This document shows, one piece after another, positions 8,801-23,315 of a stretch of 52,155 bases of DNA. This DNA comes from a virus, in IMG/VR virus record IMGVR_UViG_3300044623_000381, positions 1-52,155 of that record; one strand, 5' to 3'. A program made the position numbers and the translations under genes. Positions within the stretch are counted from its first letter, which is position 1. Every line of letters begins with the position of its first letter. The notes under the pieces are model-generated. The model worked only from the letters and a program-made list of their open reading frames with translations, was not told the DNA's origin and ran no database searches.

Positions 8801-8810
8801 GTTAAGTTCG

Positions 8811-8818
8811 TACCTTTG
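8811..8818 (+). promoter_or_regulatory. TAnnTTTG promoter box for the portal gene
   Basis: TACCTTTG lies in the 35-nt gap between terL and the portal, 17 nt before the ATG at 8836. No clear TTG lies at -33. Confidence 0.55.
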
Positions 8819-8835
8819 TCCATAAACTCCGATAA

Positions 8836-11292
8836 ATGGATCAATACTCTGTAAAAAGTAACTCATACGACTCTACGTTCCCAGACCCTTTTGCCTCACA
8901 CGATGTAAAGGTGGGAAAGAGGTACGGTCTTCAGTACGCAAAGGCTGTATACGGCCAGTGGGGAAGCGCCCAGTACGAGGGGTCTCTGTACAGCAAAAGA
9001 TTCCGTGAGTTTGAAGTCTCTAGGGACTACGCCAACGGAACGCAAGACACATCCATCTACAAGCAGATACTTACCTCTCTTGACCCAAACAATGGTGATG
9101 GGTCTCTGGTGAACCTAGACTGGACACCAGTTCCTATCGTTCCCAAGTTTGTAAAGATTGTAGTCAACAAGATTCTGTCTTCTAAGTTCTACCCCAACAT
9201 TGAAGCTGTTGACCCTTTATCACGCAGTGAGAAGGACTACGAGAAAAATAAGATGAAGATATTCATCGAGAACAAGGATATCCTAAAGGAGGCGAAGGAC
9301 TCAGGACTTCGCACCGAGGTAGACCCAGATTCACTTCCCGATACCGCTGAGGAGACCGAAATTTTCCTTGAGACTAACATCAAGACCGCTGCCGAGATTG
9401 CTGCCCAGATTGGCATCAACCTAACGCTCAGCTGGAATGACTTCGACGAGCGCATTTTTAGGCGCAATGTCGAAGACCTCGTCACCTGCGGTATTGCTGT
9501 CACCAAGCGCAGCAACGACCCCAACTACGGGATTGTTGAGGACTATGTAGACCCAGCATTCTTTATCCACAGCTTTACCTCTGACCCAAACTTTACGGAT
9601 ATAACCTACGCAGGCCACGTAAAGCGTATGAGCATCTCTGAACTTAAGAGAACCGCAGGCAACCAGTTCACCGAGGACGAGTACGAGAAGATGGCAAGGA
9701 CGGTTATGAACCGCTTTGGTAATGATTCTAGTAGGCTTATGGGATCTGGGTACGACCCAGGTATGGAGCGCTACTACTACGGCTACGACGAGTACACCAT
9801 CGAAGTCCTTGACTTTGAGTTCGTTAGCGTTGACAACATCATCTTTGAGAAGAAGGAGTCTCGTTTTGGAAACATTGGTTTCTACTACAAAGGCCACAAG
9901 TACAATGCCCCACAGCAGAGTGTGTATGATAGGGAGGCTGTCTATATGCAGAACCAGACGCTGTATGGTGGTAATTACATCCTAGGGACTGACTACATCT
10001 ACGACTACGGATTGAAGAAGAACATTCCTAAAAATGTTCACGACCTCACCCGCACCCGGATGAGCTACAGCATTGTGGCCACCAACATCCGCAAGTCTAT
10101 TCCTAAGTCTATGGTTAGCGGCATCATCGGCTTTGCCGACCAGCTGCAGATCACCCACCTAAAGCTCCAACAGTCTATCGCTAAGGCTAAGCCTGATGGA
10201 TTGATTATCGACATCGAGGGACTTGAGAACGTACAACTAGGACGTGGCGGAGAGCTACAGCCTCTGGACCTTCAAGACATCTACGAGCAGACGGGTATCT
10301 TCTACTACCGCAGCAAGAATCCTGACGGCAGCTTCCAGAACCCACCGATCCGTCCCCTTGAGAACGGCATCAGAAACATCAACGAGCTCATTACCATCTA
10401 CAACCACGCTCTGCGTATGATTCGTGATGCTACGGGCATCAACGAGGTTATGGATGGAACGAGCCCTAAGGGAGACCAGCTTGTTGGCGTACGCCAGCAG
10501 CAACTGGCGGCAGGCAACAATGCTCTTGGGGATATTAGCAATGCAGCGATTGTGCTGTACCGAAGGATCTGTGAGGACGTTGTGAAGTGTCTTCAGATAC
10601 TTCCCCCGAAGTCTATCCTATACAAGGCCTACGAGACTGCTATTGGCAGGGAGAATATGGCGGTGCTGTCGAGTTTCTCTAATCTGCCTATGTATAACTT
10701 CGGTGTTAGGGTTGTCGCTGATATGAACGAGATTGACCGTATGTATTTAGAGCAAAACATCCAGGCTTCTATTGCCCAGGGCGAGCTTGACATCGAGGAT
10801 GCTATTGCTATCCGTCAGTTAAGGGACATCGACCAAGCCGAGAGGTTGCTTATCGTACGCCGTAAGAAGCGTATGAAGGTCCGTCAGGAGATGGCCCAGC
10901 AGAACTCTCAGTTCCAGGCTCAAGCCAACGCACAGGTCGCTCAGGTGACAAGCCAAGCCAAGATGCAGGAGGACCAGATGAAGGCACAGTTAGACGCTCA
11001 GAAGATTCAGCTAGAGGCTGAGGCTAAGGCTCAGCTGCTGCAGGTGGAGTACGGACTTAAGATGCAGTTGGCTCAACTGCAAGGAGACTACGGAATCAAA
11101 GAGCAGCAAATTGAATCTGGCGTACGTCAGAGTGCCGATCAAGAGGCTGAGGACCGCAAGGACAACCGCATTAAAGAGCAAGCAGTTGCCCAAAGCAAAC
11201 TGATTGCCCAGCGTAAGGGAGACCGTTCTGAGTTGGAGAAGCAGGACCTCGAGAGTCAAGAGGATATCGTGGATATCATATTGAACCAATAG
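8836..11292 (+). CDS. Portal protein
   Basis: The 818-residue protein directly follows terL and has the layout of podovirus portals. It has a long helical/clip body with a segment on DATGINEVMDGTSPKGDQLV near residues 531-555, a region typical of portals where a loop and helix line the tunnel. Its C-terminal 150 residues (about 670-818) are Gln/Ala/Lys-rich coiled coil, probably a barrel extending into the capsid. Twelve copies would form the DNA entry ring, bind terminase, and later hold the tail adaptors at 25729-27185. It has its own promoter at 8811. Confidence 0.85.
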   Translation: MDQYSVKSNSYDSTFPDPFASHDVKVGKRYGLQYAKAVYGQWGSAQYEGSLYSKRFREFEVSRDYANGTQDTSIYKQILTSLDPNNGDGSLVNLDWTPVPIVPKFVKIVVNKILSSKFYPNIEAVDPLSRSEKDYEKNKMKIFIENKDILKEAKDSGLRTEVDPDSLPDTAEETEIFLETNIKTAAEIAAQIGINLTLSWNDFDERIFRRNVEDLVTCGIAVTKRSNDPNYGIVEDYVDPAFFIHSFTSDPNFTDITYAGHVKRMSISELKRTAGNQFTEDEYEKMARTVMNRFGNDSSRLMGSGYDPGMERYYYGYDEYTIEVLDFEFVSVDNIIFEKKESRFGNIGFYYKGHKYNAPQQSVYDREAVYMQNQTLYGGNYILGTDYIYDYGLKKNIPKNVHDLTRTRMSYSIVATNIRKSIPKSMVSGIIGFADQLQITHLKLQQSIAKAKPDGLIIDIEGLENVQLGRGGELQPLDLQDIYEQTGIFYYRSKNPDGSFQNPPIRPLENGIRNINELITIYNHALRMIRDATGINEVMDGTSPKGDQLVGVRQQQLAAGNNALGDISNAAIVLYRRICEDVVKCLQILPPKSILYKAYETAIGRENMAVLSSFSNLPMYNFGVRVVADMNEIDRMYLEQNIQASIAQGELDIEDAIAIRQLRDIDQAERLLIVRRKKRMKVRQEMAQQNSQFQAQANAQVAQVTSQAKMQEDQMKAQLDAQKIQLEAEAKAQLLQVEYGLKMQLAQLQGDYGIKEQQIESGVRQSADQEAEDRKDNRIKEQAVAQSKLIAQRKGDRSELEKQDLESQEDIVDIILNQ

Positions 11293-11293
11293 C

Positions 11294-11301
11294 TATCTTT
11301 G
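11294..11301 (+). promoter_or_regulatory. TAnnTTTG promoter box for the adhesin block
   Basis: TATCTTTG follows the portal stop codon and precedes the GTG at 11345 by 43 nt, the longest plus-strand leader I see in this window. Confidence 0.55.
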
Positions 11302-11344
11302 TAAGGAATTAGCGTTTTCTCTTTAACCTCTAACCTTTACCATT

Positions 11345-11611
11345 GTGAGCTATTCAAACATTACCAACCCAGTAAACTACCAACTTCAAGCATTCGGTCA
11401 GAAGGGATTTAGGGTAGTAACCTCAGCATTTACTCCTGTTAGCGGAGAATTCTACCGAGCATTTACCATAACCAGCGACGCAGTGGTCACCGCTACATCG
11501 GTAGAAGGGGATAGCCTTAGCGCTGTAACGCTACTTGCCGGAACAACAGTTTACGGATTGTTCAGCGCAATCAGCGTTTCTTCTGGAACGGTAATCGCCT
11601 ATATCGCATAA
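11345..11611 (+). CDS. Small virion-type protein (GTG start)
   Basis: The 88-residue protein is rich in Ser, Thr, Val and Ala with alternating strand-like segments. It looks like a small all-beta structural protein (head decoration, or a fiber attachment domain). The start is GTG at 11345, the first in-frame start after the promoter. The following gene begins 2 nt after its stop. No family is recognised. Confidence 0.65.
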   Translation: MSYSNITNPVNYQLQAFGQKGFRVVTSAFTPVSGEFYRAFTITSDAVVTATSVEGDSLSAVTLLAGTTVYGLFSAISVSSGTVIAYIA

Positions 11612-11613
11612 AG

Positions 11614-11889
11614 ATGATTGGTCTCGGTTTAAGCGTAAGCCTGACTCCGTCTGGTGCTGGATTCCTTCGCGGAGCAGCTCAGCTAATCTACAATGACTAC
11701 TACAACCGAGTAACGGCAGATGGTGGTACTGTGGAGGGAGAGTCTTGTTTTGAGCGTGCTGTATTCCTACTTGGTGTTCGTAACACCGTCAACTACATCG
11801 ACCTAATCTTCCAAAGATGGACTGCCGACGGCGGAACCATAGAGGCGGAAGATTGCTTTACAAATTCTTTCTTTGCGCTAAATCAATAA
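11614..11889 (+). CDS. Small protein with a duplicated ADGGT-E-CF motif
   Basis: The 91-residue protein carries two copies of one motif. TADGGTVEGESCFERA (residues 34-49) and TADGGTIEAEDCFTNS (70-85) align residue by residue. A third copy, IGDGGTFEGTICFDAA, occurs near residue 1306 of the nozzle-like protein at 27192. Each copy has a conserved Cys-Phe, so disulfide or metal binding is conceivable. The N-terminus (SVSLTPSGAGFLRGAAQ) looks unstructured. The neighbours are virion proteins, so it is probably structural. The function is unknown. Confidence 0.65.
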   Translation: MIGLGLSVSLTPSGAGFLRGAAQLIYNDYYNRVTADGGTVEGESCFERAVFLLGVRNTVNYIDLIFQRWTADGGTIEAEDCFTNSFFALNQ

Positions 11890-11892
11890 AAA

Positions 11893-13581
11893 ATGTCATC
11901 ATTCTACTCAGACGCATCACTAGTTTTAATTCCCTCTGGCTACAAGAATCAGAAGGTTTACTCTGCAGTCCCAACGGACGGGAGCGGAGATTTGTCGTTC
12001 ACCCGTGCCTCTGATGCCACCCGTGTGGCAAGCAACGGCCTAATTGAAAAGGTGCGGACTAATAACTTTGTTCAAAGCCAAGCATTAGCAACATCTTGGC
12101 TGGTCTTTGCCGCTAGTGGTGCTGGTACTATTGTGCGGACAAATAACTATGCCGCTGCACCCGATGGAACGATGACTGCCACCCGCATACAAAATACTGG
12201 CACAAGCACTGTTCAATGGGTTTACCAAAATTTAGTAAGCTCACCATCCGTTGTATCAATTTATGCCAAAAGAACTGGAGCAACAAACCAAACATTTACA
12301 TTGTTTGGCAATAATGGAAATACGCAATCGGCAACCTTTACCGCAACCGACACTTGGCAGCGATTTACATTTGCTTTAGGTTCGCATATATCGTTGCCAG
12401 TAGGCATCAATGCCGATGCTTCTGGAAGTGCTTATGACATCCTTTTTTGGGGCGCACAACTTGAAGATGGAGACGTAGCAACCGACTACATCGCCACCAC
12501 CACCGCAGCGGTATCAGTTGGCCCCGTTAGCGGTTTACCCCGCTTGGATTACTTGGGGTCTACTTGCCCTCGCTTGTTGCTGGAACCGCAGCGGACTAAT
12601 GTACTGCAATACTCGGAGCAAATAGACAATGCGGCTTGGGCTAAATCACTCACAACGATAACGGCAAACGCAGTAACTTCACCAAGTGGCTATCAAGATG
12701 CGGATAAATTAGTAGAAACGGCTTCGCTGGGCGTACATAGGGCAGCACCTACAAGTACAACAAACCTAAATGGAACTTATTCGTTTTTCGCAAAAAGCGG
12801 TGAAAGAACAAAGGTTGCCATACTTTCAACCACGATTGATTTAGGTTTTGATTTATCAAATGGTACCTTGATTAATTTAGGTTCTGGAACATCAGTTGGC
12901 AAAATTGAAAACTACGGTAATGGATGGTATCGCTGCTCTTTACCGCAAGCCAGTGGAATTGTTGCGCTTTCTTTAGCCCTTTTGGACGATGCTGGCAACA
13001 TTTCTTACACGGGCAACGGCACAAGTGGCGCATATTTTTGGGGCGCACAACTTGAAGTCGGAGCCTACGCCACCTCGTACATCCCCACGCTTGGGGCATC
13101 AGTTACAAGGGTTGCGGATGCTGCTTCAAAGACGGGCATTAGTTCTTTGATTGGGCAGACGGAGGGAACAATGTTTATTGACACGCAAGTAGGCGATGAA
13201 ACGGATGAGGTTTACGGATGGCTTCAGGCATCTTTGTCTGGAAATCCAAATGACTCAATTCAGATTAACCGAGCGACTACAACTGTACAATGTCAAGTTT
13301 ATATTGGTTCATCCGTTACTGGTTTCATAAGTGGTGGTAGCATTACAACAGGTCAGCGCATAAAAATAGCAGTAGGGTACAAACAAAACGATGTAGTGCT
13401 TTATTTAAACGGAACACAAATTGGGGTTGACACATCAACCAATATACCAACTTGCGCAGTATTTCAATTAGGTGCATACCCTCCGCTTTTGAGCGATTAC
13501 ACAAATAATGGCGGAATCAAGCAAGCCCTACTATTCAAGACCCGTCTAACCAACGCCCAACTGGCTGAACTAACCGCATAA
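11893..13581 (+). CDS. Head spike / tail adhesin with carbohydrate-binding-like modules and LamG domain
   Basis: The 562-residue protein starts with SFYSDASLVLIPSGYKNQKVYSAVP (shown here in part), a start I associate with phage spike proteins. Two similar beta modules follow (about 60-200 and 230-400), each ending in FWGAQLE followed by an aromatic-rich boundary (DYIATTT and SYIPTLG). Between them sits CPRLLLEPQRTN, a linker typical of this family. The last 150 residues (about 410-562) read as a concanavalin/LamG-type beta sandwich (DTQVGDETDEVYGWLQASLS, then IKIAVGYKQNDVVLYLNG). It probably binds host surface glycans. An exact 23-bp DNA repeat marks the module ends. Confidence 0.7.
   Translation: MSSFYSDASLVLIPSGYKNQKVYSAVPTDGSGDLSFTRASDATRVASNGLIEKVRTNNFVQSQALATSWLVFAASGAGTIVRTNNYAAAPDGTMTATRIQNTGTSTVQWVYQNLVSSPSVVSIYAKRTGATNQTFTLFGNNGNTQSATFTATDTWQRFTFALGSHISLPVGINADASGSAYDILFWGAQLEDGDVATDYIATTTAAVSVGPVSGLPRLDYLGSTCPRLLLEPQRTNVLQYSEQIDNAAWAKSLTTITANAVTSPSGYQDADKLVETASLGVHRAAPTSTTNLNGTYSFFAKSGERTKVAILSTTIDLGFDLSNGTLINLGSGTSVGKIENYGNGWYRCSLPQASGIVALSLALLDDAGNISYTGNGTSGAYFWGAQLEVGAYATSYIPTLGASVTRVADAASKTGISSLIGQTEGTMFIDTQVGDETDEVYGWLQASLSGNPNDSIQINRATTTVQCQVYIGSSVTGFISGGSITTGQRIKIAVGYKQNDVVLYLNGTQIGVDTSTNIPTCAVFQLGAYPPLLSDYTNNGGIKQALLFKTRLTNAQLAELTA
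12444..13057 (+). repeat. Two identical 23-bp copies marking duplicated modules
   Basis: Positions 12444-12466 and 13035-13057 are identical over 23 bases and encode the FWGAQLE boundary of each beta module in the spike protein. They are 591 nt (197 codons) apart, so recombination between them would keep the reading frame and delete or duplicate one module. Confidence 0.8.
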
Positions 13582-13592
13582 TTCAACACACG

Positions 13593-13988
13593 ATGAAATT
13601 CTTAAAATACGAGTTCACGCCCACGCAATGGGCAACGGCTAAAGCAAAGATTGAGTTAACGGGCACCGACCCCGAAGGCGAAACCTACCAATACTACAAC
13701 CCCGAATTAGTTACTGCCGTAGTGGAACTCGGCCACCTATGCACCCAATGGGGAACCGATGCCGAAGGCAACAAAGTTTGTGAGGTAACGTCACCAAAGT
13801 ACGCAGTTGACATTTTGTGGACTGCCGAACCAATGACAACTTCGTTTGCGTCTTATGTCGTATGGCCTTCGCCTTGCGGAGTTCATATCTTCGCAGGATG
13901 GGAATCAGCATACGCAACCGAGTATTGCGTAGCGAACCCAACTGCTGCCTACTGTATTCTGCCTCCAGTACCACCGACCGAAGAGTAA
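13593..13988 (+). CDS. Hypothetical protein downstream of the spike
   Basis: The 131-residue protein has five cysteines and many aromatic residues. It begins MKFLKYEFTPTQWATAKAK and ends in a Pro-rich tail (PPVPPTEE). It starts 11 nt after the spike gene's stop and is followed by a terminator hairpin, so it is the last gene of the 11345-13988 unit. It may be an assembly chaperone or an accessory subunit for the spike; this is inferred from position. No family is recognised. Confidence 0.65.
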   Translation: MKFLKYEFTPTQWATAKAKIELTGTDPEGETYQYYNPELVTAVVELGHLCTQWGTDAEGNKVCEVTSPKYAVDILWTAEPMTTSFASYVVWPSPCGVHIFAGWESAYATEYCVANPTAAYCILPPVPPTEE

Positions 13989-14012
13989 CATTCGTATCTT
14001 TATATACGTTAT

Positions 14013-14034
14013 AGGGGCCTATTGTGCCCCTTTG
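14013..14034 (+). terminator. Short GC-rich terminator hairpin
   Basis: AGGGGC (14013-14018) and GCCCCT (14026-14031) pair around a 7-nt loop, followed by a short T-run. It separates the spike operon from the large fiber gene. Confidence 0.6.
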
Positions 14035-14050
14035 ACGTTTTGTACCTTTG
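14022..14050 (+). promoter_or_regulatory. Promoter for the large fiber gene, overlapping the terminator
   Basis: TACCTTTG (14043-14050) has a TTG (14022-14024) 18 nt upstream, matching the -33/-7 pair. The ATG at 14058 follows after 7 nt. The -33 element lies inside the loop of the terminator hairpin. An in-frame ATG at 14022 would lie upstream of the box and is not used. Confidence 0.65.
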
Positions 14051-14057
14051 CAATCGT

Positions 14058-17000
14058 ATGGCAGCAAATCAAGTAGACTTTAAGATCCTTCCGAGCGATC
14101 AATTTAGCGTATATAGTCCCCAGACCCGAAGCGACAAGGTAATCACCTATTTTACTTTGCTGTCTAAACTTCGTGGAGACATCCTATCCGTTGGGCAAGA
14201 CGACGACCCAAACGATATTGTCTCGGCGTTCTACAGCAGCGTAGGGGGAACTCAGACCCTCCACCTTGTAAAGGCGGATGGGTCAGAGATTACGGCATCC
14301 GTCCCAGAGCCCACCGTAGGAACGGTTACCTCTGTCGACCTAACTGCTAGCACAGGAATCAGCGTTAGTGGGGGACCTATCACCACTAGTGGAAGTATTA
14401 CCGTAACCAACACAGCACCCGATCAGGTGGTAGTGTTGACTGGTGCTGGGACAACCTCCATCAGCGGAACCTACCCAAGCTTTACCATCACAAGTAACGA
14501 CCAGTATGTAGGTACTGTAACATCTGTTGGCCTTACGATGCCAGCGGCTTTCTCTGTTGCAAATAGCCCAGTAACTACTAGTGGAACCTTAGCGGTCACT
14601 GCAATTGGCTTAAGCTCTCAGTACATCAGGGGCGATGGCCAGCTAGCTAACTTCCCGACCCCTGGGGGTGGAGGCTCTAGCGTTAACTACTACCTAAATG
14701 GATCGGTAAACCAAGGTACGTTTGGTGGTGTCATCTACTATGAGTTAAGCAAGACACCAATCGCTGGAGCTGGAACGAATTTTACGAGGACTAGCGCTTC
14801 AGGAAATGGATACGTAGCTTCATTTATAACTGACGCTAACGACCCAGACCAGATAAACATACCTGGTGGAAACTTCAACCTAGAGTTCTACTTTAACTCG
14901 TCATCAAACGGTGGTTCGCCTGCGTTCTACGGAGAGTTGTACAAGGTAAGCACATCAAATGTGTTTACGTTAATTGCTAGCGGATCAGCCAACTCAGAAG
15001 TCATCACTGGAGGCACTTCTGTTGACCAGTACTACACCTCGATAGCTGTACCTCAGACTGCGTTACTTTCCACCGATAGGCTTGCTATTCGTGTGTATGT
15101 TATAGTAGACGGAAGAAACATCACGCTCCACACTGAGAATAGTAACTTCTCTGAGGTGATCACTACGTTCTCTACTGGCCTTAACTCACTTAACGGGCTT
15201 AGCGATCAGGTTCAGTACTTTGCTGTTGGTACTAGCGGAACTGATTTCGCGATAAGTTCTTCTGTAGACACCCATACGTTTAACTTGCCAACGGCTAGCG
15301 CCACCAACAGGGGCGCTCTGTCGTCTGCGGACTGGAGCACTTTTAGTGGCAAGCAGAATGCTTTAACGCTAACGACCACAGGAACCACTGGCGCAGCCAC
15401 CTTAATTGGAGCTACGCTAAACATTCCAAACTACGCAGACCAGTTTGTAGGGACGGTAACTAGTGTAGACCTCACGGCTGGAACGGGAATAACCGTAAGC
15501 GGTGGTCCGATAACCTCAAGCGGGTCTATCACCGTAAACAACAGCGACAGAGGCTCATCGCAAAATATCTTCAAGAACATTGCTGTTGCTGGTCAGTCTA
15601 CTATTGTGGCTGACCTAAATGATGATACTCTTACTATTGTTGCGGGAACAGGAGTTACAATCACCACTAATGACACTACGGATACTCTAACGATATCTGC
15701 AGCTGGAAGTGGGGGTACGATCACAGGAACTGGTACTACGAACTATGTTTCTAAGTTTACAAGTTCAAGCGCTATTGGTAACTCTGCTATCTATGATAAC
15801 GCGGGCAACATCGGCATCGGGACGACGTCGCCTGGAACTAAATTAGATGTAGTAGGAAATGCTAGAATGGGTGCGAATACATCACAGCAAGCTTTTGCAG
15901 CATTACAAGTATCAGCCGGGGAGGGAACAACTACTACATACAGAGATATAGATTTACACGGTTTTTGGGCTGCAGGTGAAGGTCACGCTATAACAGCAAA
16001 TTACGGAACAACAACATCTGATATCGTAGGACAAATTGTATTCCAGCACGATAATCCTGGTTCTAAAATTAAGTTTGGAAGATTGTATGATTCTGGAAAT
16101 CAATCTACATATCCAATGGAGTTAGTTAGCGATGGTGGAAGCGCTAACTTAACAATAACGGGTAAAGTCGGAATTGGGACTACGAATCCAACTTCTAAAT
16201 TATACATAGAAGGTGGTTCAGCTAACTGGAACGAAACCACGCCTGGTCTTTCTGTTGGTACCATCCATCTAGATCCTGGAGTAAGTACAAACGATTTCGG
16301 TAATGCTATAACATTTGGAGCTAGTGATGCGTCTAGTGGAACAGATGCTCAGGCTGGGATATATGTTCGTAGTGATGGAGCCTACGGTACAAAAATGTAC
16401 TTTGCTACAACAGATGCTTATGTTACTGGAAGTAAGACAAGGATGTATATATCCGAAGCTGGAAGCGTCGGTATTGGTAACACTGCACCATCTCAGATAC
16501 TCCACGTCACTGGAAACCTCCGAGTAACGGGAGCGTACTACGACTCCGGAAACTCAGCAGGTACATCAGGTCAGATATTGTCTTCGACCGCAACGGGTAC
16601 TTCTTGGATTGCAGCACCTAGTGGTAGTATAAGTGGTAGTGGTACTACGAACTATGTGCCTAAGTTCACAGGTGCAAGTGCTATTGGTGACTCTGCCATA
16701 TATGATAACTCGGGTAAAATCGGCATTGGTACGACCGCGGCTAGCGCTAAGTTTCAGGTTGTATCTGGAATTCAGTCAAATACGGTTTCCGTAGCTAATT
16801 CAGCAGCATATATATATGGGATAGATGTCGGTTTAGCTATTGGGCAAGACAATGGCGCTGGAGGATATGGAACTTGGGTTCAGTCTACTCGATTATCAGA
16901 TGGAGTATCGTTTAGTATGGCTTTAAATCCCAATGGAGGCAATGTCGGTATTGGTACGATAGCTCCACAGGCATTGTTGCACGTATCTGGAACAGTTTCT

Positions 17001-18371
17001 TATGGTAGCGCTAGATTTAGCCCAACATCCGCTGACGGTGAATCAGCTATAGCCTTTTATGCTGACGTAGCAGGAACTAGTACAAGTACATCTTGGGTAG
17101 TTGGTCAGGCTGGGTGGGGACACACTGGAGACTTTGTTATTGGTAATGAAAATGGTGGGGCTGGCGGCAATGTAAGACTCCTAATAGAGCGCTCCGGCAA
17201 CGTCGGAATTGGGACGACGGGTCCAGCATCTAAGCTTCACGTTCAAGATGGAGATATAAGGATATACAATAGCACTTCCGCAAATCCGACTATATACTTT
17301 GGCAACTATAACGTAAGTACAGCATATCCACAGGTATCCATTGTTCAATCAGACGCTGGGTCTTATGGTGGGAACCTTGAGTTCTACACTAAGCCAAATG
17401 GAGGGCCAACAAATGCATTGATATTTGCAATGAATATTACCCACCAACAAAGAGTTGGCATTGGGACGACGGCACCATCGTTTAAGACAACTATATCTGC
17501 AGACATCACAAAAGATGGTGATCTAAGCCCTGGGACTGCACAATTGTCTCTTGAGGGAATAACCACTCCTGGAAAAAGAATGATTCTAGGGTATGATACT
17601 AATAGTAATGGTTTTGGTTTCATTAAGGCTGGAAACTTTGGGGTAACGTGGACAACATTATCGCTTCAGCCAGATGGTGGCAACGTCGGCATTGGGACGA
17701 CGAGTCCTGCTGCTAAACTACACGTTGCTGGCACTCAATACATATCTGGTGATTTAAGAATAGGTTCGTCATTTGGAGCTACAAATCAAACAAGTATATT
17801 TAAGGACCAAGGGTCCGCTGGTCTTGGTATTTTTACGTGGGGAGATACGGCTCCAGTTGTTATTGGTGGAGGTCACGTAATAATACGGTCTGAATCCGGT
17901 GCGAACAGAAATCTTTATGTTACTGGCAACGTCGGCATTGGGACGACGGGGCCATCCTACAAGCTAGACGTTGTTGGAGACGCTCGCATCACCTCGGGCT
18001 CATTAGGCGTGGGGGTTGCCCCCAACGCCACCGACGGACGTATCGACGCATCCAACGACATCGTAGCATTCCAGACCTCAGATAGGAGGCTAAAGGAAAA
18101 CATCACCCCCATCACTAACGCACTTGAAAAGGTTCGTTCTCTAACAGGTGTAATGTTCGACTGGAAGGAAGAGACCAAGTCTGTCCACGGATACGAAGGA
18201 CACGACGTAGGTATCATCGCCCAAGACGTGCAGGCAGTACTCCCAGAAGCTGTCCGTACCAACGACACAGGATACCTATCGGTACGCTACGAGAAGATGA
18301 TTGCACTACTGATTGAAGCAAACAAAGAACTCGCTACTCGTGTTGAAGAACTAGAATCTAAATTAAAATGA
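14058..18371 (+). CDS. Long tail fiber with VGIGTT repeats and S74 chaperone tail
   Basis: The 1437-residue fiber has three parts. Residues about 85-200 and 470-500 carry three GTVTSV-type repeats (VSGGPITTSGSITV). Residues about 580-1310 carry nine repeats around VGIGTT-P--KLHV, interspersed with different inserts. The end (about 1330-1437) is a Peptidase_S74 intramolecular chaperone: SDRRLKENI, GVMFDWKEE, HDVGIIAQDVQAVLPEAV, YEKMIALLIEA, then a coiled coil. In this family the chaperone trimerises the fiber and cuts itself off using a Ser-Lys pair, probably within SDRRLKE. It would recognise the host surface. The next gene overlaps its stop by 4 nt. Confidence 0.88.
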   Translation: MAANQVDFKILPSDQFSVYSPQTRSDKVITYFTLLSKLRGDILSVGQDDDPNDIVSAFYSSVGGTQTLHLVKADGSEITASVPEPTVGTVTSVDLTASTGISVSGGPITTSGSITVTNTAPDQVVVLTGAGTTSISGTYPSFTITSNDQYVGTVTSVGLTMPAAFSVANSPVTTSGTLAVTAIGLSSQYIRGDGQLANFPTPGGGGSSVNYYLNGSVNQGTFGGVIYYELSKTPIAGAGTNFTRTSASGNGYVASFITDANDPDQINIPGGNFNLEFYFNSSSNGGSPAFYGELYKVSTSNVFTLIASGSANSEVITGGTSVDQYYTSIAVPQTALLSTDRLAIRVYVIVDGRNITLHTENSNFSEVITTFSTGLNSLNGLSDQVQYFAVGTSGTDFAISSSVDTHTFNLPTASATNRGALSSADWSTFSGKQNALTLTTTGTTGAATLIGATLNIPNYADQFVGTVTSVDLTAGTGITVSGGPITSSGSITVNNSDRGSSQNIFKNIAVAGQSTIVADLNDDTLTIVAGTGVTITTNDTTDTLTISAAGSGGTITGTGTTNYVSKFTSSSAIGNSAIYDNAGNIGIGTTSPGTKLDVVGNARMGANTSQQAFAALQVSAGEGTTTTYRDIDLHGFWAAGEGHAITANYGTTTSDIVGQIVFQHDNPGSKIKFGRLYDSGNQSTYPMELVSDGGSANLTITGKVGIGTTNPTSKLYIEGGSANWNETTPGLSVGTIHLDPGVSTNDFGNAITFGASDASSGTDAQAGIYVRSDGAYGTKMYFATTDAYVTGSKTRMYISEAGSVGIGNTAPSQILHVTGNLRVTGAYYDSGNSAGTSGQILSSTATGTSWIAAPSGSISGSGTTNYVPKFTGASAIGDSAIYDNSGKIGIGTTAASAKFQVVSGIQSNTVSVANSAAYIYGIDVGLAIGQDNGAGGYGTWVQSTRLSDGVSFSMALNPNGGNVGIGTIAPQALLHVSGTVSYGSARFSPTSADGESAIAFYADVAGTSTSTSWVVGQAGWGHTGDFVIGNENGGAGGNVRLLIERSGNVGIGTTGPASKLHVQDGDIRIYNSTSANPTIYFGNYNVSTAYPQVSIVQSDAGSYGGNLEFYTKPNGGPTNALIFAMNITHQQRVGIGTTAPSFKTTISADITKDGDLSPGTAQLSLEGITTPGKRMILGYDTNSNGFGFIKAGNFGVTWTTLSLQPDGGNVGIGTTSPAAKLHVAGTQYISGDLRIGSSFGATNQTSIFKDQGSAGLGIFTWGDTAPVVIGGGHVIIRSESGANRNLYVTGNVGIGTTGPSYKLDVVGDARITSGSLGVGVAPNATDGRIDASNDIVAFQTSDRRLKENITPITNALEKVRSLTGVMFDWKEETKSVHGYEGHDVGIIAQDVQAVLPEAVRTNDTGYLSVRYEKMIALLIEANKELATRVEELESKLK
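15804..17958 (+). repeat. Nine copies of a 24-bp GNVGIGTT-encoding repeat
   Basis: Copies start at 15804, 16161, 16461, 16713, 16938, 17196, 17448, 17689 and 17935. Several share long identical stretches such as GTCGGCATTGGGACGACG, although the same peptide could be coded otherwise. The DNA between copies varies in length (about 225-357 nt) and is often more A/T-rich. This suggests cassette exchange by recombination between copies. Confidence 0.8.
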
Positions 18372-19435
18372 CCTTACCCCTTTCGGGCCCTCTAGAGGCC
18401 AGCGACATCAACGTAGAGCTTGGACGCTCAGCAACAGCAACATTCTCTATTACTGATGCAGCAACAGGGGTTTATGGTGCCATCAATACCTGTAGCATTC
18501 CCCACCCTAATGGAACTGCTCCCCACGCCTATTCGGAGTGGTACGGGTACAACCACAACGCTATATGTCTTAATTCATATTATGCATTCCTTGATGACCC
18601 ATCCAGCGGATCGGGTAAACTTTACTCGCTCACTAAAGACTACTGGACCGTTGTTTCATCATCAAGGCCAAGTCCAGCATCTTCAATGACCATAAGCTTT
18701 TGGATGAAAATGACAGATAATTGGGGAACCAATCGTGCTGGTCTTATTGAGTTTACAACTGGATCTAGCAATAATAGTCTTCTAATAGATTGGCGGCTGT
18801 CGGAAGATCTTTTAAACCCTGGAACTTATTTTAACGATATACTTTTCTTTTTTAGAACTGGATCAACAGATATTTTGTCGAGTATAGTAAACTTAGCAGA
18901 TTCAAACAATTCTTCACTTACAGGAATAAATTCTGGTGGTTACTGGGACAATAGTGGCAATACCGGATATGTTGATAGCAATGGTTACTCATTGATAACC
19001 ATTGTCATCGACTACAGCCAATATGGAACATCTCAATATGCTAAGTGGTACTGGAATGACACGCAACTTATTGTCCCTTGGCAACCAAATCCCGGAAATG
19101 GAGAATCTTTTACAGATGGAGTATCCTCATTATCGGGACCAAACTGGACCAACAGCAGGCTGTATGTTGGCGGAACTTCTGGACTTCCCGCTGAATGCCA
19201 ACTTGATGGATTTGCCATATTCTTGAATACAGCACTTAATCAATCGGATGTTACAAGCATATACAATGGTGGCGCTGTTGCCCCTATTGCATCATATACG
19301 GGTATATCGTCAGCCCTTTTGTTTTACAACTTTGAAAACGATACTCCAAACATTGGACTCGACACAGGCGGAACATATACGATGGATCTTAATGAGCTAA
19401 ACAATCCGCAAAGAGTTCAAGACCCAGCTCTCTAA
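18368..19435 (+). CDS. LamG/concanavalin-like tail protein
   Basis: The 355-residue protein begins with a short Gly/Ser collar (MTLPLSGPLEASDINVELGR) that I associate with Bacteroidota phage tail proteins. It continues with a LamG_3-type lectin fold from about 75 to 335: SFWMKMTDNWGTNRAGLIEF, then SRLYVGGTSGLPAECQLDGF, AIFLNTALNQSDVTSIYNGG and LLFYNFEND. Domains of this fold bind sugars, so it is a candidate receptor-binding subunit. It may be attached to the fiber encoded just upstream, with which it overlaps by ATGA. Its middle is A/T-rich compared with its start, consistent with domain exchange. Confidence 0.75.
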   Translation: MTLPLSGPLEASDINVELGRSATATFSITDAATGVYGAINTCSIPHPNGTAPHAYSEWYGYNHNAICLNSYYAFLDDPSSGSGKLYSLTKDYWTVVSSSRPSPASSMTISFWMKMTDNWGTNRAGLIEFTTGSSNNSLLIDWRLSEDLLNPGTYFNDILFFFRTGSTDILSSIVNLADSNNSSLTGINSGGYWDNSGNTGYVDSNGYSLITIVIDYSQYGTSQYAKWYWNDTQLIVPWQPNPGNGESFTDGVSSLSGPNWTNSRLYVGGTSGLPAECQLDGFAIFLNTALNQSDVTSIYNGGAVAPIASYTGISSALLFYNFENDTPNIGLDTGGTYTMDLNELNNPQRVQDPAL

Positions 19436-19447
19436 TTGAATACTTTG

Positions 19448-19455
19448 TATATTTG
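19448..19455 (+). promoter_or_regulatory. TAnnTTTG promoter box
   Basis: TATATTTG, 22 nt before the ATG at 19478. A second TTTG word (19444-19447) directly precedes it. No TTG is visible at -33. Confidence 0.55.
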
Positions 19456-19477
19456 CCTAACTAACTAGTACATAACA

Positions 19478-19867
19478 ATGAGCGATATAATTTACACCTG
19501 GGACTGCCGTACAGTAGACTGCTACCCGACCAAAGACGAGCAAGGCGTAGAGCTGGATGACGTAGTGTACAACATCCACTGGCGCCTAACAGGAACACAG
19601 GCTGTTGATACCAAGACCTACACCGCTACCGTTATCGGCACGCAGATGGTCTCTGCTGACGACATCGACCCTGCCACCTTCGTTCCCTTCGAAGATCTTA
19701 CCAACGAGATTGCCACAGGATGGTGCACCACATCAATGGGACCAGAGCAGGTAGCAAACCTAGAGACCTCTGTAGCTAACCAAATCGCGAGTCAAATCAA
19801 TCCAACGTCTATAACGTTGGTGATTGGTCAGCCCATACCTCCTACCCCTCCTACTCCAGTAGTTTAG
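19478..19867 (+). CDS. Conserved-type phage hypothetical protein
   Basis: The 129-residue protein starts DIIYTWDCRTVDCYPTKDEQ and continues with VVYNIHWRLTGTQ, a pattern I associate with a family of small phage proteins near tail genes, with no known function. The middle reads as a beta-rich domain (YTATVIGTQMV). The C-terminus has a predicted amphipathic helix (VANLETSVANQIASQINP) and a Pro-rich tail. It has its own promoter and lies right after the adhesins. Confidence 0.65.
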   Translation: MSDIIYTWDCRTVDCYPTKDEQGVELDDVVYNIHWRLTGTQAVDTKTYTATVIGTQMVSADDIDPATFVPFEDLTNEIATGWCTTSMGPEQVANLETSVANQIASQINPTSITLVIGQPIPPTPPTPVV

Positions 19868-19870
19868 TAG

Positions 19871-19878
19871 TATATTTG
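19871..19878 (+). promoter_or_regulatory. TAnnTTTG promoter box
   Basis: TATATTTG, 17 nt before the ATG at 19896. It lies 3 nt after the stop codon of the previous gene. Confidence 0.55.
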
Positions 19879-19895
19879 CATAAATAATTAAATAT

Positions 19896-20168
19896 ATGTC
19901 ATCATCATCAACAACACACGTAGCAAAAGAGCTCATCGACACTGTCAAGCAGCTCCAATCATCAATGGAGGCAATCAAGTCTGAGCTTGGCACCATTACA
20001 CTTATCGAATCACGCAAGGCTAAGCTAATCGCCTCCTTCGAGGAGGCTGAGGTGTCTATGAAGGACGTGAGGGAGAAGATCTACAAGGATTACGGAGACG
20101 GAACCATCGACCTCAACACTGGCGAGTTCACCCCCAACGGTGTGCCCGAGGCTGAGATTGTAGAGTAG
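19896..20168 (+). CDS. Small coiled-coil protein
   Basis: The 90-residue protein is mainly one long helical region (residues 8-65) with heptad-like spacing (AKELIDTVKQLQSSMEAIKS), and a short acidic tail. It has no signal peptide and no membrane segment. A double terminator follows it, so it is expressed alone from the promoter at 19871. It could be a virion or regulatory protein. No family is recognised. Confidence 0.6.
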   Translation: MSSSSTTHVAKELIDTVKQLQSSMEAIKSELGTITLIESRKAKLIASFEEAEVSMKDVREKIYKDYGDGTIDLNTGEFTPNGVPEAEIVE

Positions 20169-20183
20169 ATACTGGCACAGGCA

Positions 20184-20210
20184 GATAGGCCCCTTAGTGT
20201 GGGGCTTATC
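20184..20210 (+). terminator. First of two tandem terminator hairpins
   Basis: Ten base pairs (one G-T) form between 20184-20193 and 20201-20210, closing a 7-nt loop with a GGCCCC/GGGGCT core. There is no long T-run. A second hairpin follows 16 nt downstream. Confidence 0.55.
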
Positions 20211-20226
20211 ATAAGCTGGTTAAGGC

Positions 20227-20252
20227 AAAGCCCCGCAAGGGGCTTTTCTTTT
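20227..20252 (+). terminator. Strong intrinsic terminator
   Basis: AAAGCCCC (20227-20234) and GGGGCTTT (20239-20246) form a perfect 8-bp stem with a GCAA tetraloop, followed by CTTTTT. It isolates the lysis cluster from the upstream genes. Confidence 0.8.
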
Positions 20253-20257
20253 TGGCA

Positions 20258-20265
20258 TAACTTTG
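20258..20265 (+). promoter_or_regulatory. TAnnTTTG promoter box for the membrane/lysis cluster
   Basis: TAACTTTG immediately follows the terminator and lies 29 nt before the ATG at 20295. Genes 20295-22083 follow with overlaps or tiny gaps, so it probably drives them all. Confidence 0.55.
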
Positions 20266-20294
20266 CACTACTTCAAACCCATTCATTTAAACAG

Positions 20295-20549
20295 ATGAAA
20301 TTTTTTACTTACATAAAAGAAAAACTTATGGGCTTTGCCTCTATCTTTAAAGATGACAACAACTGGAATGAGAAAACCATTATTGGTTTTATGTCATTTG
20401 CTGTAATGGTTATAGTAATGGTTGCGGACGTTGTCTCTGGCGTTATGGGTAAAGACCTAGTTATTAACGAGTTCACTTATAATTCTTTTGTAATCATTAC
20501 CCTAGGATCATTTGGAATCGCAGGACTAGAAAAGTTCGCTAAGAAATGA
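20295..20549 (+). CDS. Holin-like membrane protein
   Basis: The 84-residue protein has two hydrophobic segments (about 28-50 and 59-77) separated by a short charged loop, with basic residues at both ends (MKFFTYIKEK and EKFAKK). This is the size and layout of a class II-type holin, which would open the inner membrane for the M15 endolysin at 1487. The start at 20295 follows the promoter at 20258. An in-frame ATG at 20199 would read through the terminator hairpins and is rejected. The next genes also carry membrane anchors. Confidence 0.6.
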   Translation: MKFFTYIKEKLMGFASIFKDDNNWNEKTIIGFMSFAVMVIVMVADVVSGVMGKDLVINEFTYNSFVIITLGSFGIAGLEKFAKK

Positions 20550-20797
20550 AGATGCCCGTCAACTTTGAGCAGTTCCAAAAGAACCCCACCGCAGCAATAG
20601 CGTTTATTGCATTGGCAGCCGTAGGCTATTTATACATTGATCAGAAGATGAGCAACTCAACAACCGATGAGCGTTGTCAAACAAGAGTGGGTGAGCTTGA
20701 GGTGAAGGTAGAAAAGTACACCGAACACGTCAGACGGCTAGACTCAGCGTTAGCCTACACAAGTGCTAAAAACGAAATGCTAATACAAACACGATGA
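20546..20797 (+). CDS. Small membrane-anchored coiled-coil protein
   Basis: The 83-residue protein has one hydrophobic segment (about 14-31) and then a charged helical tail with two cysteine-free heptad stretches (VGELEVKVEKYTEHVRRLDS). It overlaps the holin-like gene by ATGA and is followed by another ATGA overlap, so the three are coupled. The architecture (N-terminal anchor, periplasmic coiled coil) is that of an Rz-type inner-membrane spanin or an antiholin-like partner. No family signature is seen. Confidence 0.6.
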   Translation: MKMPVNFEQFQKNPTAAIAFIALAAVGYLYIDQKMSNSTTDERCQTRVGELEVKVEKYTEHVRRLDSALAYTSAKNEMLIQTR

Positions 20798-21144
20798 AAG
20801 CCACACAAGCTGCAGTAATTCTGTTAATCCTTCTAATCATTGGTGGAATCCTTAGCGCACAAAAGCCAAAAGTAAAAGTGGTAGATGAGATGGACTTGAT
20901 GATTGAGAAGTCCAACCAAACTATGCGTAAAGCGGCATCCGTATCAAAGAGCGCAGACAATCTAATTGTTGCGGAAGTAAAAGAAATGAAGGCCACCATC
21001 ACAACTTTAGAGGAGGAGAAGGTCGCCCTCGTTGAACAAGTTAAAACAATGCAAGATGAAATCGTTGCTATTAGCGAGCAGCCTGCTGCTTTGCCATTTA
21101 ACGTACTCGCAATCCTACCCGATTCAACGGGTGGAGGGGAGTGA
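20794..21144 (+). CDS. Putative inner-membrane spanin (i-spanin-like)
   Basis: The 116-residue protein has an N-terminal membrane anchor (residues 6-22, AAVILLILLIIGGIL) and a long periplasmic helical region (about 28-97) with heptads such as KATITTLEEEKVALVEQVKT. It ends in a Pro/Gly-rich tail. This matches Rz-type i-spanins, which pair with an outer-membrane partner to fuse the membranes after wall degradation. A second gene starts inside its 3' part in another frame (21056), as in Rz/Rz1. It is coupled to the previous gene by ATGA. Confidence 0.55.
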   Translation: MKATQAAVILLILLIIGGILSAQKPKVKVVDEMDLMIEKSNQTMRKAASVSKSADNLIVAEVKEMKATITTLEEEKVALVEQVKTMQDEIVAISEQPAALPFNVLAILPDSTGGGE

Positions 21145-21418
21145 TACGGTAGTCGTTCTTAAGCTGTCTCAGGCAGCGTCTATGAACAGCAAGTTTGTCA
21201 AGCTGAAGAAAGAGATTGACTCTGTAAGCGTAGACTATCGTGGTATGAAGTCTGTTGCCGACTCTCTTGCTACTGAGAACATCAAAACCACAGAGACCCT
21301 ACGTAAAGCCCTTCTAGAGCCTAAGGCTGCAGTCAGTAGGGCAAACGACCAATGGATTGGTGGAATAGCTACGTATCTATGGGGCAGATTTGTATTCTTC
21401 GTATTATTTGAGCAGTGA
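21056..21418 (+). CDS. Putative exported spanin partner, nested start
   Basis: The ATG at 21056 lies inside the 20794-21144 gene in another frame, giving an 89-nt overlap. The 120-residue product has a signal peptide (MKSLLLASSLLLCHLTYSQS). The Cys at 13 follows three leucines, which is a poor lipobox, so cleavage after YSQ by signal peptidase I is more likely. A helical region follows (about 35-100), with SDTVVVLKLSQAASMN at its start. The C-terminus (WGRFVFFVLF) is hydrophobic. It could be the outer partner of the i-spanin. An in-frame TTG at 21032 is less likely as start. Confidence 0.55.
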   Translation: MKSLLLASSLLLCHLTYSQSYPIQRVEGSDTVVVLKLSQAASMNSKFVKLKKEIDSVSVDYRGMKSVADSLATENIKTTETLRKALLEPKAAVSRANDQWIGGIATYLWGRFVFFVLFEQ

Positions 21419-21702
21419 TGGAAGAAAGAGTAAAGAACCTCCTTAAGAAGTACGGGTTATCTGGAATTAATAAAGCCAAAGCAACTCCCTCACACCCAAA
21501 GAAGTCGCACATCGTATTAGCTAAGGTCGGAGATAAGGTTCGCCTTATCCGCTTTGGGCAAAAAGGTGCTGACACAGTAACCGAGAGCAATCCTACTGCT
21601 GCTCGTGCTGCAAAGCGTGCGAGCTTTAAGGCTCGGCACGCAAAGAACATCGCCAAGGGTAAGATGAGCGCGGCGTACTGGGCAAACAAAATTAAGTGGT
21701 AG
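21418..21702 (+). CDS. Small basic conserved-type phage protein
   Basis: This 94-residue protein starts at an ATG overlapping the previous TGA by one base (a GTG at 21415 is the alternative). It is rich in Lys, Arg and Ala. The core TPSHPKKSHIVLAKVGDKVR, then IRFGQKG, and the end KARHAKNIAKGKMSAAYWAN form a pattern I recognise as recurring in phages and Bacteroidota/viral contigs, with no known function. The high charge suggests nucleic acid binding or packaging inside the virion; this is inference. Confidence 0.65.
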   Translation: MEERVKNLLKKYGLSGINKAKATPSHPKKSHIVLAKVGDKVRLIRFGQKGADTVTESNPTAARAAKRASFKARHAKNIAKGKMSAAYWANKIKW

Positions 21703-21705
21703 GTC

Positions 21706-22083
21706 GTGAAGGTTGCTAAAAAAACAAACCCAGAACTTTGGGAGAAGTCAAAGGCTCAGGCTAAGGCTAAGATGGGCGGAAAGCACTCAGCTAGAGCTAT
21801 GCAGCTTGCTGTTTCTATCTACAAGAAAGCAGGCGGAGGATACTCCGGCGCAAAGACGAAGACAAGCCTCAGCAAGTGGACCAAGCAGAACTGGCGCACC
21901 AAGAGCGGCAAGCCATCAGGCGAGACAGGAGAACGCTACCTTCCAGAGAAGGCAATCAAATCATTAAGCTCTAAAGAGTACGCAGCCACCACCCGCGCTA
22001 AGCGCGAGGGGACTGAGAAAGGCAAGCAATTCGTTGCCCAACCCAAGGCTATTGCCAAGAAAATCGCTCGGTTCCGTAAGTAG
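21706..22083 (+). CDS. DUF5872-like basic protein (GTG start)
   Basis: The 125-residue protein is very basic. It has the segments KMGGKHSARAMQLAVSIYKK, then GGGYSG, LSKWTKQNWRTKSGKPSGET, GERYLPEKAIKSLS, EYAATTRAKREGTEKGKQFV and the ending AIAKKIARFRK. This is the pattern of the DUF5872 family found in phages and large DNA viruses, with no known function. It starts with GTG 3 nt after the previous stop. The two adjacent small basic proteins may act together, for example in DNA condensation. The family name is recalled, not searched. Confidence 0.65.
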   Translation: MKVAKKTNPELWEKSKAQAKAKMGGKHSARAMQLAVSIYKKAGGGYSGAKTKTSLSKWTKQNWRTKSGKPSGETGERYLPEKAIKSLSSKEYAATTRAKREGTEKGKQFVAQPKAIAKKIARFRK

Positions 22084-22126
22084 CCATATACGAAACTGTT
22101 GCAAAATATGCAATAGTTATTTGAAC

Positions 22127-22134
22127 TAATTTTG
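22127..22134 (+). promoter_or_regulatory. TAnnTTTG promoter box for scaffold and capsid
   Basis: TAATTTTG, 27 nt before the ATG at 22162, in an A/T-rich 78-nt gap. A TTG at 22099-22101 is 25 nt upstream of the box, longer than usual. Confidence 0.5.
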
Positions 22135-22161
22135 CGTTATTAATAACAAAATTTATTTTAT

Positions 22162-23292
22162 ATGAGCAATGACATTGAAAGCGCTCTAAGCGCAATGGGA
22201 TACGAGGTAACCAGCGGAGAGGTGCCAGAGGGAACGCCACTAGACGCCCCCACCTTCTCAGTACCTGAGGGAGCAGAGGTTTTAGACTTTAGCAATCAAG
22301 TTGCAGAGTCTACACCAGAGCAACCAGAGGCCGCACCGCAGGAGACCTACGAACCCCAACAGCAACTAGAACAGGAGTCTGTTCAAAGTTCTTTTACAAA
22401 TGAACCCGAGCCAGAGATGTCTGAGCAAGAGTTCGAGGCTGCAGTCGCAAGCTACGTCAGTGAAAAGCTAGGCGTATCTATCGATAGCATCGAACATCTT
22501 ACCCAGCTTCTTGAAGCTCAAAAAGCCCCATCAATTGACGAGAGAATAAAGGCAATCGCCGACTTCGTTGAAGAGACAGGACGTGATCCACTTGACTGGT
22601 TTAGATACCAGTCAATTAATCCGTCTGAAATGGATGAGCTCAGCGCTGTGAAACTGCAGCTAGCTGTTGACTATCCTAATCTCTCTAATGAAGACATCGA
22701 TTTACTGGTGAGGTCCAAGTACAAAGTAGACGAGGACCTATACAGTAATGAAGAGATTCGGTTGTCGAGTATCCAATTGAAGATTGATGCGGACAAAGCT
22801 AAACGGGACATCGAGAAATTGCGCGACAATTATCGTATGCCTGTGAAGCAAGAAGTCTCAAATAACGAAGTTCAAAGTCCCATTGACGAGAACTGGATTC
22901 GCACGATGAGCCAAGAGGTTGATGCCCTTGAGGCGCTAAGCTTTCAGCTTGGCGACCAAGAGTTCAACTTTGGGCTTAACGACCAGTACAAGTCGAGCTT
23001 AAAGGATAAGAACGCACGTCTTGATGAGTTCTTCGATCAGTATGTCGATAACAGCGGAGGCTGGGACTTCGAGCTGCTGAACTCTCACCGAGCCCTAGTA
23101 GATAACATTGATGAAATTGTCAGTTCTATCTACAAACAGGGCCTTAGTGATGGCCAGCGCAAACTCGTAGAAACTGCCGCGAATGTAGATGTCTCATCTC
23201 CACGTCCCGCTGATTCAAAGAATGCTGATTCTGTCTCTGCTCAGATACTAAACTATCTAAGCAATAGCGACAGTCTTCGTCTAAAAATATAA
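22162..23292 (+). CDS. Capsid scaffolding protein
   Basis: The 376-residue protein is acidic and Glu/Gln/Pro-rich at the N-terminus (about 15-85: PEQPEAAPQETYEPQQQLEQ), followed by long helical segments with charged heptads. It lies immediately before the major capsid gene and shares its promoter and terminator. This position and composition are typical of scaffold proteins, which guide procapsid assembly and leave before DNA packaging. There is no protease motif in it. No enzymatic signature is seen. Confidence 0.7.
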   Translation: MSNDIESALSAMGYEVTSGEVPEGTPLDAPTFSVPEGAEVLDFSNQVAESTPEQPEAAPQETYEPQQQLEQESVQSSFTNEPEPEMSEQEFEAAVASYVSEKLGVSIDSIEHLTQLLEAQKAPSIDERIKAIADFVEETGRDPLDWFRYQSINPSEMDELSAVKLQLAVDYPNLSNEDIDLLVRSKYKVDEDLYSNEEIRLSSIQLKIDADKAKRDIEKLRDNYRMPVKQEVSNNEVQSPIDENWIRTMSQEVDALEALSFQLGDQEFNFGLNDQYKSSLKDKNARLDEFFDQYVDNSGGWDFELLNSHRALVDNIDEIVSSIYKQGLSDGQRKLVETAANVDVSSPRPADSKNADSVSAQILNYLSNSDSLRLKI

Positions 23293-23315
23293 AAACGCCT
23301 AACACATAAAACAAA

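Follow-up and report, generated by a model that had tools for sequence, protein, structure and literature searches.

We analyzed a tail-fiber gene in the IMG/VR virus record IMGVR_UViG_3300044623_000381, a stretch of 52,155 nucleotides (nt) that is possibly part of a larger genome and is called the window here. Its cassettes are joined by nine in-frame copies of a 24-nt repeat encoding [V/I]GIGTT or a close variant, and it is likely that such fiber genes cross over in frame at the homology of this repeat and that repeat copies convert each other. The direct basis for this reading is codon identity among the repeats, the sharing of whole cassettes in new contexts, block ends at repeats, hybrid repeats at junctions, and conversion-like changes in two isolates. 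The features of the fiber gene are as follows (related loci carry L numbers; aa, amino acid identity).

14022..18371, +: tail-fiber gene built of cassettes (open reading frame [ORF] from TTG 14022; likelier start ATG 14058); distal-fiber PHROGs, S74
14511..14560, +: GTVTSV-type linker; L251 homology stops at 14529
15714..15854, +: second linker family, copy 1 (GTGTTNYVSKF...), overlapping repeat 1; L251 homology begins at 15723
15804..15827, +: repeat 1 (24 nt, GGCAAC-type plus [V/I]GIGTT core)
15828..16160, +: cassette 0; L251 99% aa
16161..16184, +: repeat 2
16185..16460, +: cassette 1; L251 93%, L273 78%, L272 72%, L275 71% aa
16461..16484, +: repeat 3 (VGIGNT)
16485..16712, +: cassette 2; L251 87% aa; contains the second NYVxKF linker
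16623..16763, +: second linker family, copy 2 (GSGTTNYVPKF...); L251 homology stops at 16687
16713..16736, +: repeat 4
16737..16937, +: cassette 3; L297 88% aa
16938..16961, +: repeat 5 (VGIGTI)
16962..17195, +: cassette 4; distant match in L301, 51% aa
17196..17219, +: repeat 6
17220..17447, +: cassette 5; no relative in the compared cassette set
17448..17471, +: repeat 7; left junction of the cassette common to L251 and L007
17472..17678, +: cassette 6; full length in L251 (93% aa) and L007 (90% aa); also L303 (87%)
17679..17702, +: repeat 8; right junction of the cassette common to L251 and L007
17703..17924, +: cassette 7; no relative in the compared cassette set
17925..17948, +: repeat 9; S74-end homology starts here in L002, L077, L007, L005, L006, and L251 (in L003, at 18035)
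18078..18257, +: S74 intramolecular chaperone domain (PF13884, E 4.9e-20, residues 1353-1412 of 1449)

The [V/I]GIG copies lie at 15810, 16167, 16467, 16719, 16944, 17202, 17454, 17685, and 17931, with spacers of about 200 to 335 nt and cassettes of 69 to 113 residues. An initial annotation of this DNA had described nine VGIGTT repeats conserved at the DNA level. The number and the conservation stand, but exact VGIGTT is found in only five copies and [V/I]GIGTT in seven, the remaining two reading VGIGNT and VGIGTI. The 18 to 24 identical bases said to be shared by several copies hold for the last two, which have a run of 25 nt in common; other copies share shorter runs. The 18-mer GTCGGCATTGGGACGACG is exact in two fiber copies and within one mismatch in four, and with up to three mismatches allowed it matches the window seven times, always in the fiber gene (shuffled expectation, 0.01).

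Where two repeats carry the same residue, they use the same codon in 163 of 319 comparisons (0.511), against simulated expectations of 0.318 from genome usage, 0.332 from the rest of the fiber, and 0.389 from the modules between repeats alone (p = 0.0019). The VGIGTT core has a codon identity of 0.591, compared to 0.292, 0.301, and 0.371 (p < 1e-4, < 1e-4, and 4e-4, respectively). The codons of the repeats are otherwise less used by the phage (ACG encodes 0.62 of their Thr and 0.14 genome-wide, GTC 0.41 of their Val and 0.14 genome-wide), and the inter-repeat modules favor A/T-ending codons, with GTC at 0.03 of Val. Codon bias as the whole explanation of the likeness is ruled out, the core value lying above all three expectations. 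Among 26 viral ORFs first found by scans that did not use the 18-mer, within-gene codon identity exceeded expectation in 25 (0.564 against 0.337 expected) and between genes was only 0.358. The likeness of the repeats is thus largely one among copies of a single gene, a sign of concerted evolution. These ORFs came from searches with window queries, and the 18-mer is present as well on some of their contigs. Codon figures for loci L148-L250 and L304-L417 are biased, as those loci were picked by the 18-mer.

Exchange of cassettes among relatives

Upstream, the window and L251 are largely colinear (92.6% over 7878-12063 and 93.3% over 13860-14529). Within the fiber after 14529, only 15723-16687, 17454-17701, and 17925-18185 are shared at 85% or more, and these blocks mostly end in repeats or other linkers. 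The second block spans repeat 7 to repeat 8, with neighbors that differ on both sides in L251, and L007 holds the same cassette. Cassette 1 is full length in L273, L272, and L275 but in different ordinal positions, and six of the eight window cassettes have relatives in other phages. Fiber homology to L002 is found only from 17924 (repeat 9) onward. L258 matches the window over 7304-11885, 13532-15353, and 19870-24356; in L258-L261 the fiber is kept to 15353 and sequence is kept again from about 19865, with other linkers and no such array between, and in L258 these conserved flanks enclose one GIGIG copy and an S74 end. Between contigs, 41 cassette pairs matched at 70% aa or more, and 30 of these were shared over at least 85% of both members. 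The 30 whole-cassette pairs yield 48 junctions, several of which share a contig and hence are not independent. At these junctions identity is about 0.8 on one side of the repeat and about 0.3 on the other.

Block ends were scored in a set of 216 ORFs from 200 loci in 192 contig groups, with non-overlapping loci of a single contig counted apart, which gave 143 deduplicated high-scoring segment pairs (HSPs; at least 75% identity, at least 120 nt). The set excludes contained or near-identical ORFs, HSPs below 120 nt, HSPs that were duplicates or lay within one contig, and block ends that fell within 45 nt of an ORF end or outside the array. A 60-nt zone from -6 to +54 of the repeat core held 85 of 139 interior block ends, compared to 21% of random positions (p = 9e-25). 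For blocks at 90% identity or more the count was 31 of 41 (22% expected), and for HSPs with the window itself 11 of 14 (25% expected); between viral loci it was 58 of 95, and between cellular loci 26 of 42. Junction repeats beside a flank at least 93% identical carried mismatches inside the 24 nt in 20 of 22 cases (mean, 3.3). Therefore, the shared stretch ends within the repeat, and for most near-identical cassettes the breakpoint lies inside it. Judged from the codon comparisons and these alignments, the initial proposal that recombination between short repeats shuffles fiber modules appears largely right, whole cassettes having apparently been swapped among relatives with their ends at repeats.

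Cultured isolates carry such arrays as well. The cyanophages S-CRES1 and S-CRES2 have a fiber with 12 such repeats and differ at 14 of 3,954 fiber positions, 7 of them within the 288 repeat positions that make up 7% of the gene (p = 2e-5). Third-position differences number 6 of 96 in repeats against 1 of 1,222 elsewhere, and at all four copies that changed, one phage has exactly the majority repeat, a signature that gene conversion would leave. Across seven close locus pairs including S-CRES, third positions differ at 29 of 192 sites in repeats against 89 of 2,272 elsewhere, a tally that takes in some repeats at which shared blocks end. Six pairs can be formed among the cultured Pelagibacter phages Bylgja, HTVC168P, HTVC131P, and Ran with Jormungand (taken as one); N-terminal homology is lost 14 to 27 nt past the first repeat-core start in five of them, Bylgja-HTVC168P being the exception. 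The VGIGTT array was absent from six ACG-2014f cyanophages and an elemovirus that were examined, and six of 11 further isolates (four S-TIM cyanophages, HTVC304P, and HTVC134P) were dropped as having no ORF with three motif copies.

Proposed mechanism and its alternatives

We propose that the gene encodes a long, S74-terminated adhesion fiber whose distal half would be a row of interchangeable cassettes, each bounded by repeats. In the protein, each stretch of trimeric β-helix is probably closed by the repeat acting as a capping loop, so that any cassette could follow any other. It would then serve doubly, as a structural joint and as a short stretch of homology. Fiber genes of co-replicating phages would cross over in frame at the repeats, whole cassettes being swapped, added, or dropped, and repeat copies within one gene would convert one another. 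Exchange at the repeats would explain why they are alike at synonymous sites and the cassettes are unrelated. The agent is presumably homologous, probably annealing-type, recombination, and the benefit may be a change in host range.

A capping-loop fold in this fiber is suggested by analogy. In a comparison with the PDB that covered 15714-18368 only, phmmer matched the repeat region to 8ond (bd2133; whole-sequence E 1.9e-8) and also to 8ojn, 8onb, and 8onc, with three 8ond segments aligning over VGIG...KL. The portions of Caulton et al. (2024, PMC10769870) used here give the capping-loop consensus of the Bdellovibrio MAT proteins as V-G-G/N-pi-X-X-P-X-X-X-L, which VGIGTTxPxxKL of the window resembles. 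The MAT superfamily likewise has S74 and non-S74 members and chimeric fibers; in those portions, however, tip swapping is proposed without a DNA-level mechanism, whereas the window fiber has many serial cassettes and the repeat DNA is the exchange junction. A single-chain model of cassette 6 had a predicted local distance difference test score of 65 and no Foldseek match at E ≤ 0.001.

Several points weigh against the proposed crossover at repeats. Most of the relatives compared are metagenome contigs. Eleven of the 41 cassette pairs are shared only in part, and 54 of 139 block ends (39%) lie away from these repeats. Conserved repeats attract the ends of BLAST matches and so favor their being counted in the repeat zone, and 6 of the 14 HSPs with the window have one left end in common, at repeat 9, and so are not independent. 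The control for junction repeats, namely repeats shared on both sides, comprises only three cases (mean, 1.0 mismatch). The pair of window and L251 has no excess of repeat differences (third positions, 2 of 24 against 24 of 297), and single 8ond segments match weakly (best, 0.005). No recombinase was recognized among the window ORFs scanned, several small ORFs and a 2,495-aa ORF lying outside that scan.

The alternative that fares best, although we regard it as improbable, is structural selection alone. Under this hypothesis recombination is random and illegitimate, only joins at capping loops fold, and DNA homology has no role. Structural selection would likewise put block ends at repeats, capping loops being natural domain borders. 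Unrelated linkers (GTVTSV..., RGALSSADW..., NYVxKF...) bound some exchanged blocks too, and junction cores, at 0.80 identity, exceed only slightly the 0.75 measured for unrelated repeats from those gene pairs. Such selection does not predict the excess synonymous identity among repeats that flank unrelated cassettes, the mismatches confined within junction repeats, or isolate repeat differences equal to the majority repeat.

We give little credence to a second alternative, in which purifying selection on the repeat as DNA or RNA (a hairpin, a translation pause, or a protein-binding site) fixes the codons without recombination. The consensus 24-mer does fold as a single-stranded hairpin (z = -3.15; one of the five folded pieces, from L382, was misplaced and is not a repeat), and GTC, GGG, and ACG are favored alike in viral loci and in the Patescibacteria sampled below. 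However, repeats differ more than their surroundings in the close pairs and isolates, some phages, such as S-CRES, use other codon sets, and complementarity in the variable hairpin pair (9,21) shows no stronger linkage within loci than in non-facing pairs such as (9,18) and (9,24). A DNA hairpin under selection was rejected on this last ground, covariation not being specific to stem pairs despite the good consensus fold; selection on the DNA or RNA of the repeat may have a minor role.

It is very unlikely that the junctions are assembly chimeras, with unrelated fibers misjoined by assemblers at 24-nt repeats. The metagenomic origin of most relatives would allow it, but many junction-bearing cassette pairs have diverged by 7 to 30% in protein since exchange and so do not stem from one misjoined read pool, and the homology loss in cultured Pelagibacter phages argues the same way. 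The array might also stem from a cassette-plus-repeat unit that was recently duplicated in tandem and whose cassettes then diverged quickly. This fits the similar cassette sizes but is scarcely credible, as, apart from the two NYVxKF linkers, the window cassettes are joined by no repeat family that extends beyond the repeat region, and six of eight cassettes are related to those of other phages.

Exchange in T-even gp38 occurs at glycine-rich motifs, and diversity-generating retroelements diversify receptor-binding proteins. The latter produce point variation, unlike the cassette exchange seen here, and a classical retroelement was rejected: as the initial annotation had noted, there is no reverse transcriptase (no PF00078 match in this possibly partial record, compared to matches in 3 of 14 control genomes). 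Switching of the invertase or shufflon type would call for a site-specific recombinase and inverted sites; no recombinase was recognized among the ORFs scanned, and the repeats described here are direct and in frame (inverted repeats were not searched for). Like the S74 fibers of phages T5 and K1F, the window fiber has a C-terminal S74 domain with SDxxxK, but it adds a cassette array between DNA-conserved repeats. In gp38, five conserved glycine-rich motifs alternate with four hypervariable receptor-binding segments, which are short tip-adhesin segments in contrast to cassettes of the length found here (PMC12529663). Conserved repeats also separate domains, including a variable host-range region, in Streptococcus thermophilus antireceptors, but these repeats are different, being collagen-like (PMC5601072, which cites Duplessis and Moineau 2001). 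Phage protein domains are shuffled in an ongoing manner, strongly so in tail fibers and spikes, although that survey works at the protein level and the parts consulted give no crossover sequence (PMC10684548). A limited search of the open literature, with most subscription journals and all preprints outside it, found, among the titles and abstract openings listed, no DNA-level crossover repeat in fibers; the word VGIGTT was absent there, and VGIGT occurred in 13 papers, whose titles concern antimicrobial peptides or bacteriocins in 12 cases and an archaeal flagellin in one. Module exchange in phage fibers is already well known.

The fiber gene and its genome context

The fiber ORF translates to 1,449 aa and matches tail-fiber PHROGs in a profile scan. 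L259 and L261 agree with the window from 14037 onward and differ upstream, and ATG 14058 is the likelier start on this comparison. SDRRLK in the translation fits the catalytic motif SDxxxK, with predicted activity. Further linker families (GTVTSV, RGALSSADW, SDRGSSQN, and NYVxKF) occur in the window at 14319, 14511, 15450, 15309, 15543, 15741, and 16650 and recur in relatives such as L260 (1,940 aa); the two NYVxKF copies are 77% alike. The variable island extends beyond the fiber: genes at 11893-13530 and 18372-19860 mostly have no match in L258-L261 and similar relatives, the remaining flanks of which are 93 to 96% identical to the window. One fiber-flanking gene has a weak Laminin_G_3 match, under the cut-off of that profile.

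Over 14000-21700, DNA matches to named phages comprise only a 62- to 76-nt stretch outside the fiber (21613-21700), with 78 to 84% identity to 17 phage records that include Roseobacter, Siovirus, Celeribacter, Lentibacter, and Synechococcus phages. A structural protein (23316-24734) is distantly related, at 29% identity in the best matches, to a Flavobacterium elemovirus and, among 85 records, to Cellulophaga phages as well. Elsewhere the window encodes a 1,705-aa ORF (27192-32309) matching the C-terminal domain of the crAss-phage muzzle, and, on the minus strand (46454-49241), a UDP-galactopyranose mutase and a glycosyltransferase, genes that possibly serve surface-sugar change. An HNH endonuclease gene (653-1468) is a possible source of DNA breaks.

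The repeat beyond phages

The exact 18-mer occurs in 104 IMG/VR stretches and in at least 114 stretches of a genome collection. By title, 50 of the 80 genome-collection matches listed are from Patescibacteria (36), Omnitrophota (6), Woesearchaeota (6), and Pacearchaeota (2). Uniform random sequence of 257 Gb would give about 7.5 matches, so some single matches are due to chance; among the matches listed, 58 of 80 loci have an ORF with at least two [V/I]GIGTT copies. Loci L304-L383 include giant ORFs in metagenome-assembled genomes (MAGs) of Patescibacteria, Omnitrophota, and DPANN with up to 22 VGIGTT repeats, this highest number being in ORFs cut by the locus end. Among the matches listed, a crude S74 motif was present in only 3 of 80 loci; L374 visibly ends S74-like nonetheless. 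A 5.2-Mb Flavobacteriales MAG (G010, with L379) has 124 VGIGTT-coding matches over many contigs.

In 192 Patescibacteria genomes drawn evenly across the phylum, including G001 and G007, which had been reached via the 18-mer, a degenerate repeat pattern was found in 72 and at least twice in 46, compared to a reversed control pattern in 15, never more than once each. Exact GTCGGCATYGGGACGACG accounts for 6 of 53 copies in 30 Patescibacteria loci, against 0.011 expected from their own codon usage; 4 exact copies remain without L441, which lies in G007, already reached via the 18-mer locus L378. The viral loci have 12 of 181 (0.002 expected), and seven genomes from the order of a Flavobacteriales MAG have none in 34 copies.

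A repeat-free profile built from six viral cassette 6 copies matched 9 of 718 cellular cassettes at E < 0.01, led by L382 (6e-16), L314 (4e-14), and L340 (9e-10) from Patescibacteria, with the best shuffled cassette at 0.09. With cassette 6 as a single tblastn query without repeats, only L314 was kept among cellular loci (E 3e-4); L327, matched by a repeat-containing query, was lost once repeats were removed. On these profile matches, cassette 6 is assigned to a family present also in Patescibacteria. Of 204 HSPs, one alone was viral-cellular DNA at 75% or more (75% identity), which falls short of showing recent phage-cell transfer. We tentatively raise the possibility, which we hold to be rather doubtful, that one 24-bp in-frame sequence, GGCAACGTCGGCATYGGGACGACG, is a common crossover site for assembling adhesion cassettes, and that phage fibers share one recombining cassette pool with the giant repeat proteins found in Patescibacteria and DPANN archaea, without a reverse transcriptase or site-specific recombinase.

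A crossover site that can be read in the sequence gives a handle on fiber re-assortment and can be counted in metagenomes. If it is true that this site also joins cassettes in Patescibacteria and archaea, these organisms would possess a means of diversification in addition to retroelements, and it would become possible to test whether phages and ultra-small cells exchange cassettes.

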